NCBI GenBank assembly: GCA_028714915.1
Contig: JAQTLL010000003.1
Coordinates: 124,001-188,000, forward strand
Origin: Sulfuricurvum sp.
GTDB lineage: Bacteria > Campylobacterota > Campylobacteria > Campylobacterales > Sulfurimonadaceae
Reading direction: 5' to 3'
Length of the DNA stretch: 64,000 nucleotides
A program made the position numbers and the translations under genes. The notes beneath the pieces were generated by a model. That model saw only the letters and a program-made list of their open reading frames with translations, searched no databases and was not told where the DNA came from. Positions within the stretch are counted from its first letter, which is position 1. Each line of letters opens with the position of its first letter. Shown piece after piece: positions 15,518 to 15,827 of this stretch.

Positions 15518-15619
15518 TCATAAATCTATAATCCTGAATATGACCTATGTTATCTAGTACGGTTGCTTCATGCTATATGTGGCGAAATTTCACTTATTGG
15601 TGTCTTTGGCATATGGGGG

Positions 15620-15638
15620 CAAGGGGTAAAACCCCTTG
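15620..15638. other. 7-bp hairpin, CAAGGGG/CCCCTTG
   Basis: Perfect inverted repeat with a 5-nt loop. On the minus strand the second arm is followed by CCCCC rather than a U-tract, so it is not a classical terminator. Its ACCCCTT could pair with the AAGGGGG ribosome site of the small ORF upstream. Confidence 0.6.
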
Positions 15639-15645
15639 GCTATAC

Positions 15646-15705
15646 TCAATTGAGCATAGGTGCAAAAATGCACAAAAGCAGTAATGCTGTTACATACTTA
15701 TCCAT
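15646..15705 (-). CDS. Possible 19-residue hydrophobic peptide
   Basis: The ATG at 15705 opens a frame encoding MDKYVTALLLLCIFAPMLN and a TGA stop. It has a strong ribosome site (AAGGGGG, five bases before ATG) and a candidate promoter 117 bp upstream. The peptide is a short charged start plus one hydrophobic helix, the look of type I toxins and other membrane mini-proteins. Codons 5-7 form one arm of a stem with the predicted 5' end of the transcript, and the last codons fall in a hairpin. It could equally be the signal-peptide remnant of a dead gene: no continuation was found in other frames beyond about 22 codons. Low certainty. Confidence 0.35.
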   Translation of the reverse strand: MDKYVTALLLLCIFAPMLN

Positions 15706-15736
15706 AAAGACCCCCTTCTTATGTTCTTTGGAGGAC

Positions 15737-15773
15737 AAAAAAAAAGGTCAAGGGGTAATTAATCCCTTGACCT
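15737..15773 (-). terminator. Intrinsic terminator on the minus strand
   Basis: AGGTCAAGGG and CCCTTGACCT form a perfect 10-bp stem with a 9-nt loop, directly followed on the minus strand by nine U residues. It is the cleanest rho-independent terminator in the window and would end the bioA-rsmH-ftsL transcript. It also lies between the TATAAT at 15827-15822 and the ORF at 15705, so it could attenuate that ORF. Confidence 0.85.
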
Positions 15774-15821
15774 CAATCTTATCACTCCATTGAACATAAG
15801 AAAAGTTGTAACAGCAAAAAA

Positions 15822-15827
15822 ATTATA
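15822..15827 (-). promoter_or_regulatory. -10 box candidate for a small transcript
   Basis: TATAAT on the minus strand, followed by six T and then G at 15815, the expected start position. That G is also the first base of the arm GCTGTTAC, so the predicted RNA would begin exactly with a long-range pairing arm. No -35 is visible. Confidence 0.4.

Follow-up and report, generated by a model that had tools for sequence, protein, structure and literature searches.

A family of toxin-antitoxin-like loci in Campylobacterales with a candidate antitoxin RNA in the terminated leader of a 19-residue peptide gene

The compact element described here, about 210 bp long, is probably a self-contained toxin-antitoxin-like gene. 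It would encode a 19-residue membrane peptide under RNA control from a single promoter, the terminated leader of the peptide's own mRNA acting as the antitoxin RNA. The Sulfuricurvum sp. genome carries three copies. One lies at 15615-15827 on the minus strand of the window (the whole 64,000-nucleotide stretch of DNA that was analysed) and the other two are 85% and 77% identical to it. The original prediction had tentatively read the window copy as a type I toxin-like mini-mRNA related to the AapA loci of Helicobacter, with pairing of its 5' end into a short ORF, an anti-Shine-Dalgarno (anti-SD) sequence near its 3' end and an antisense RNA from the plus strand. Inspection of the sequence located every feature it named at the given minus-strand position, and the agreement of these features (-10, arms, SD, ORF and hairpins) is far above chance. 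The structured mini-mRNA, the hydrophobic peptide, the 5' pairing and the 3' anti-SD were all retained in our reading, whilst the antisense RNA and the homology to AapA were not. The features of the window copy, in the order of the transcript, are as follows.

15822-15827, minus strand: -10 box TATAAT, read from the sequence; the sole conserved promoter hexamer of the element
15808-15815, minus strand: arm 1, GCTGTTAC, with which the transcript is predicted to begin; pairs with arm 1'
15792-15805, minus strand: arm 2 plus leader anti-SD, CTTTTCTTATGTTC, forming 14 bp with GAACATAAGAAGGG, which lies directly upstream of the SD and runs into it
15785-15789, minus strand: TGGAG, which prolongs the arm-2 helix with CTCCA (15729-15733) beyond a 2x2 internal loop
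15737-15773, minus strand: intrinsic terminator in the leader, with a 10-bp stem (AGGTCAAGGG/CCCTTGACCT), a 9-nt loop and T9
15737-15815, minus strand: predicted terminated leader RNA of ~79 nt, candidate RNA antitoxin, suggested by the promoter and the terminator
15711-15717, minus strand: Shine-Dalgarno sequence (SD) AAGGGGG, read from the sequence
15646-15705, minus strand: 19-codon ORF MDKYVTALLLLCIFAPMLN and stop (codons 15705-15649, stop 15648-15646), with a coding signature over 48 ORFs
15686-15693, minus strand: arm 1', GTAACAGC, target of arm 1 within the ORF, codons 5-7
15640-15673, minus strand: two hairpins at the ORF end and downstream (GTGCA-TTTT-TGCAC; CTATGCTCAATTGAGTATAG), from sequence and fold
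15615-15638, minus strand: 3' hairpin CCAAGGGG-TTT-TACCCCTTG and C-rich tail GCCCCC, able to pair with the GGGGG of the SD (fold-back anti-SD)

The element belongs to a multicopy family. We collected 48 intact distinct copies from 25 genomes of the Sulfuricurvum/Sulfurimonas family, many of the family sequences being MAG-derived. A DNA search gave matches in 20 of 60 relatives, every one in a single genus. A covariance model built from 27 copies (R1) reached further, matching 21 of the 41 Sulfuricurvum genomes, the genus Sulfurimonas, which belongs to the same family, and further families of Campylobacterales. In three further Campylobacterales families the relatives show near-zero sequence identity and the same anatomy. 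With distant members added (R2), the E-values were 3e-21 for family f4, 2e-13 for f19 and 7e-13 for f9, a gain that is partly by construction as these members helped to build the model. Filters were stricter in searches of more than 40 genomes, which makes the family range a lower bound.

The copies are chromosomal. Their flanks are mostly unrelated, with few orthologous sites. One neighbour of the window copy is a DUF2018 gene (Pfam 8e-27); the other we take, from its position, to be an ftsL-like gene with an rsmH-like gene upstream of it. Relatives that have the ftsL-DUF2018 neighbourhood are empty at this site. The empty sites did not yield exact insertion boundaries, the intergenic sequence being too diverged. 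A leader-only remnant (L040, 1443-1597), opposite in orientation, apparently occupies the ftsL 3' end at which the window copy also lies.

The leader terminator is the most informative part of the element. It is conserved, was overlooked by the original prediction, and changes the likely mechanism. The hairpin (GGTCAAGGG-loop-CCCTTGACC-T9) is nested between the arms. Its T-run is exactly T9 in all 48 Sulfurimonadaceae copies and T7-T9 in other families, its stem covaries in both the 27-copy and the cross-family alignments, and its computed energy has a median of -14.9 kcal/mol (weakest -9.0). Upstream, a sense -10 with at most one mismatch stands at the offset of the window copy's TATAAT in 41/48 copies. 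In 45/48 copies the end of the -10 and arm 1 are 5-8 nt apart (almost always 6 or 7), the remaining three having no scored -10. A simple promoter/terminator scan detected neither signal because its loop limit was 8 nt and it required a -35-like hexamer. With one promoter and a terminator in the leader, the predicted products are thus a leader RNA of about 79 nt (median 79 nt over the copies, range 70-98) and a read-through peptide mRNA.

Leaders also occur alone. Six copies (L037, L039, L040, L022, L041 and L042) have kept TATAAT and the terminator and lost the ORF, and a seventh (L032) has an altered -10; these leader-only copies break within ~20 nt after the T-run. No intact SD and ORF without a leader was found among the partial hits, a search to be read with the fact that the 48-copy collection itself required an upstream T-run. 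This asymmetry is what one would expect if the leader protects and the ORF does harm. Leader-only copies could also persist simply as gene terminators. The L037 leader, from genome G006, fits at 19/19 positions the target of a full copy found elsewhere, L025 in genome G031.

We then consider the product. The 19-residue ORF is genuine and under clear coding selection, judged from the substitution pattern across copies. All 48 distinct ORFs from Sulfuricurvum/Sulfurimonas-family genomes have exactly 19 codons. Pairwise differences at codon positions 1/2/3 were 0.361/0.056/0.361, and the N/S ratio was 0.36 of expectation. The peptides follow the pattern M-(D/N/E)-K-hhh-(A/T)-(L/I)-h-L-(M/L)-C-(I)-F-A-P-(M/L)-(L/I)-polar. 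Codons 4-18 are nearly all hydrophobic, giving the small hydrophobic product typical of type I systems. Peptides of other families are mostly 19-20 residues long (e.g. MWRLLLIILLLCLLTKKLY, MRWVFLVIFLLCLLTVRAY and MQQLLLIVILLMFVITKLH). An SD precedes the ORF in all copies, its presence having been a selection criterion of the collection. A longer in-frame reading, from a TTG in the upstream T-run (MSSKEHKKGVFMDKY...), is available in some copies only and was rejected.

Both arm pairs are real RNA helices by the covariation of their two sides. Covariance analysis, as proposed in the original prediction, was run on the family copies, and the pairing of the 5' end into the ORF was borne out by compensatory changes. 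Over 27 copies, 97.0% of cells were paired, against 79.4% after shuffling and 41-48% when the arms were slid by 1-3 columns. Cells changed on both sides numbered 166 compared with 48 in shuffles, and the covariation score was 0.562 against 0.201. The cross-family alignment gave 95.8% paired and 222 double-sided changes against 57, figures that lean towards structure as this alignment was fitted to it. Of the 10 pairs counted across the family for the arm 1 helix, 7 have changed on both sides, and 97.4% of their cells are paired. Codons 4-7, in which arm 1' lies, keep T at the second position in most copies, specifying hydrophobic residues, and vary at positions 1 and 3 jointly with the leader. 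Thus the peptide and the helix are both preserved. The arm 2 helix likewise shows compensatory changes within the family. The second arm pair had been placed at 15800-15792/15726-15718 with a length of 9 bp; the pair is present but that length is too short. The helix is in fact 14 bp in the window copy and 14-15 bp in most copies, reaching the SD, and it therefore partly covers the SD. In family f4 the position of TGGAG/CTCCA is occupied by GGGGTGGC/GCCACCCC.

The arm sequences are specific to nearly every copy. Leaders matched their own target at 18.7/19 positions on average and those of other copies in the same genome at 11.7 (maximum 16). The computed gain from binding of a leader to its own mRNA body had a median of -27.3 kcal/mol compared with -8.4 for other copies of the same genome. 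In the free leader the predicted probability of being unpaired is 0.72 for arm 1 and 0.48 for arm 2, so that the arms would be only partly open, a point against the proposed antitoxin role.

A second anti-SD lies at the 3' end. The 3' hairpins carrying ACCCCTT are present, and a tail complementary to the SD stands directly after the last hairpin. SD and tail covary across the family, which supports the 3' anti-SD of the original prediction. They change together in GAAGGGAG/CTCCCTTC (L031), AAGGGAGA/TCTCCCTT (L172), AAGGGGGCGA/TCGCCCCCTT (L137) and AGGAGGCCG/CGGCCTCCT (L171), and match perfectly in GAAGGGGGCAA/TTGCCCCCTTC (L139) and in GAAGGGGACA/TGTCCCCTTC. In distant families the pairing of an SD with its own tail averaged 7.5 bp compared with 5.7 bp when tails were swapped, a value reached in 0/5000 permutations. 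The test has little power within Sulfuricurvum alone, where the G and C runs barely vary. The predicted fold of a leaderless window-copy RNA pairs the SD with the tail. Computed SD accessibility differed little between RNA states and was not decisive, because GGGGG also pairs with the nearby CCTCC. The SD region thus covaries both with the leader and with the anti-SD of the 3' tail, and the primary transcript appears to be untranslatable, its SD masked by an anti-SD in the manner of type I toxin mRNAs.

These features suggest the following course of events. Transcription would start at about 15815, and the T9 terminator in the leader would halt most RNA polymerases, releasing the ~79-nt leader RNA. 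The peptide mRNA would arise from occasional read-through. Once the SD region emerged, the leader would fold back in cis, pairing over 14 bp across arm 2' and the SD and over 8-10 bp across codons 4-7, and so mask the SD. In the full-length mRNA the second anti-SD at the 3' end would mask the SD as well, as in hok and aapA. An mRNA stripped of leader and tail by RNases could be translated, but excess free terminated leader RNA would pair with this processed mRNA via the same arms and block translation. Were the leader RNA lost, the peptide would be made and may damage the inner membrane.

The main alternative is an attenuated mini-gene acting only in cis, in which terminator and arms repress the peptide gene until some signal releases it and the terminated leader is a by-product. 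Cis pairing alone would explain the covariation of the arms equally well with no role in trans. Every conserved pairing can form in cis, and the predicted fold of the full-length RNA contains them (-91.6 kcal/mol). The arms of copies within one genome also show no divergence beyond chance (P = 0.16), in line with this alternative. Against it, we noticed no covarying antiterminator that would compete with the terminator stem; the terminator lies enclosed within the outer arms, which do not compete with it, and there are leader-only copies whose promoter and terminator have stayed intact. We consider control in cis alone possible but not probable.

By contrast, a classical type I locus of the AapA/IsoA or Ibs/Sib kind, in which the plus strand would give rise to an antisense RNA, is improbable. 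The general anatomy is that of type I loci, with a small hydrophobic peptide, several copies and a masked SD, and the window copy does have a plus-strand TATACT at 15641-15646, which the original prediction had named as a possible antisense -10. At that position, however, a near-consensus -10 stands in only 4/48 copies, and TAnnnT is absent altogether from 23/48. We therefore rejected this promoter as a family feature, and the proposed antisense RNA is left unsupported. No other antisense -10 position is conserved in the 48 copies, whereas the sense -10 is, and we saw no terminator for the plus strand.

Least likely, at a similarly low level, is a harmless product, be it a small membrane protein or a regulator, or else a selfish dispersed repeat with an ORF that serves only to spread it: the patchy distribution (21/41 congeneric genomes), dispersed sites and decayed copies would suit it, but strong selection for the peptide and tight translational locking would be costly for a harmless product, flanks are mostly not shared, and the phage, plasmid and viral collections searched held no match to the family.

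We next compared the element, read as a peptide gene held in check by its own leader RNA, with known systems. In hok/sok the full-length mRNA is likewise inert via 5' and 3' pairing, and activation of the element would similarly need processing. Sok, however, is an antisense gene; hok is not known to carry a leader terminator and requires the overlapping mok reading frame, whereas no mok-like overlapping frame was seen in the element. The Ibs/Sib loci of E. coli are dispersed repeats too, and Ibs peptides have about the same length and pattern as the peptide here. In phage P4, the CI RNA is a short operon leader RNA that pairs with the operon's own transcript and prematurely terminates the replication operon, whilst the pairing in the element covers the SD and codons of the peptide ORF.

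AapA/IsoA of Helicobacter pylori comes from the same bacterial class and also has several chromosomal copies and a tiny hydrophobic peptide. The full-length aapA mRNA is inert, its SD sequestered by 5'-3' long-distance pairing, and metastable structures mask the SD during transcription (PMC6733600). Both a distal 3' anti-SD and 5' structures sequester the aapA SD, as they appear to in the element (PMC6733600, PMC8322730). AapA1, however, has 30 aa and is controlled by the antisense RNA IsoA, whilst the element has no conserved promoter on the opposite strand and its leader carries a terminator. AapA was compared by description only, and no sequence or layout tie to it was found.

In layout the element resembles the type III systems. 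The ToxIN operon is arranged as antitoxin RNA, Rho-independent terminator and toxin (PMC4147584), and ToxIN/CptIN share with the element one promoter, an RNA placed first (the antitoxin there, a candidate antitoxin here), a Rho-independent terminator and an ORF expressed by read-through, which encodes the toxin there and a putative toxin here (PMC4147584). The likeness concerns layout only, the family having one conserved promoter and, in all copies, a terminator between leader and ORF. The repeat RNA ToxI binds a protein RNase, whereas the element's leader is complementary to an mRNA that encodes a 19-residue hydrophobic peptide in place of an endoribonuclease. We file the element as an RNA-controlled toxin-antitoxin-like locus, outside AapA/IsoA for its lack of a conserved antisense promoter and outside type III for its kind of product.

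The gene family is apparently undescribed. Rfam gave no match in the window at gathering score, and a permissive scan gave only weak matches far below it, the best of them a microRNA precursor model that scored 31 bits where 75 is the gathering score. Pfam and NCBIfam held no meaningful family for the peptide (20-mer queries), and no description of the element was found in the literature searched. On balance we lean towards a toxin-antitoxin layout in which premature termination of the toxin mRNA yields a 5' leader that serves as the antitoxin, comes from the same strand and promoter, and acts in trans by antisense pairing. It would combine the layout of type III with the action of type I, in multiple copies with copy-specific arms, in several Campylobacterales families. 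Action of the leader in trans would mean that a single promoter supplies both toxin and antitoxin RNA in a ratio set by the terminator; an antisense gene would then be unnecessary, and type I and type III systems would be bridged. Peptide toxin-antitoxin-like loci would be extended to free-living sulfur-oxidising Campylobacterales. The family also offers dozens of natural arm pairs for tests of RNA-RNA specificity.

Several individual loci depart from the common arrangement. L134 (G116) has two tandem copies, and in G136 (L143) a second peptide ORF, MLLKIAILLLIILVFATKLY, follows a T-run within the same 3.2-kb stretch. In L021, at about 1480-1540, the stretch from arm 1 to arm 1' is seemingly deleted, which places the promoter directly before about codon 5 and looks like a hairpin-mediated event. 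At G015:C7:143555-144780 the 5' part and the 3' part of an element lie on one strand ~1.1 kb apart, as if an insertion had split one copy. Similar 19-residue peptides, MFRFILIIILICIITVKAY and MIKLAIIIILLCLMIVKAY, are encoded from position 1501 in L166 and L168 (f11) and L167 (f14), behind a different structured leader that has no T-run. These three loci are possibly a sister family.
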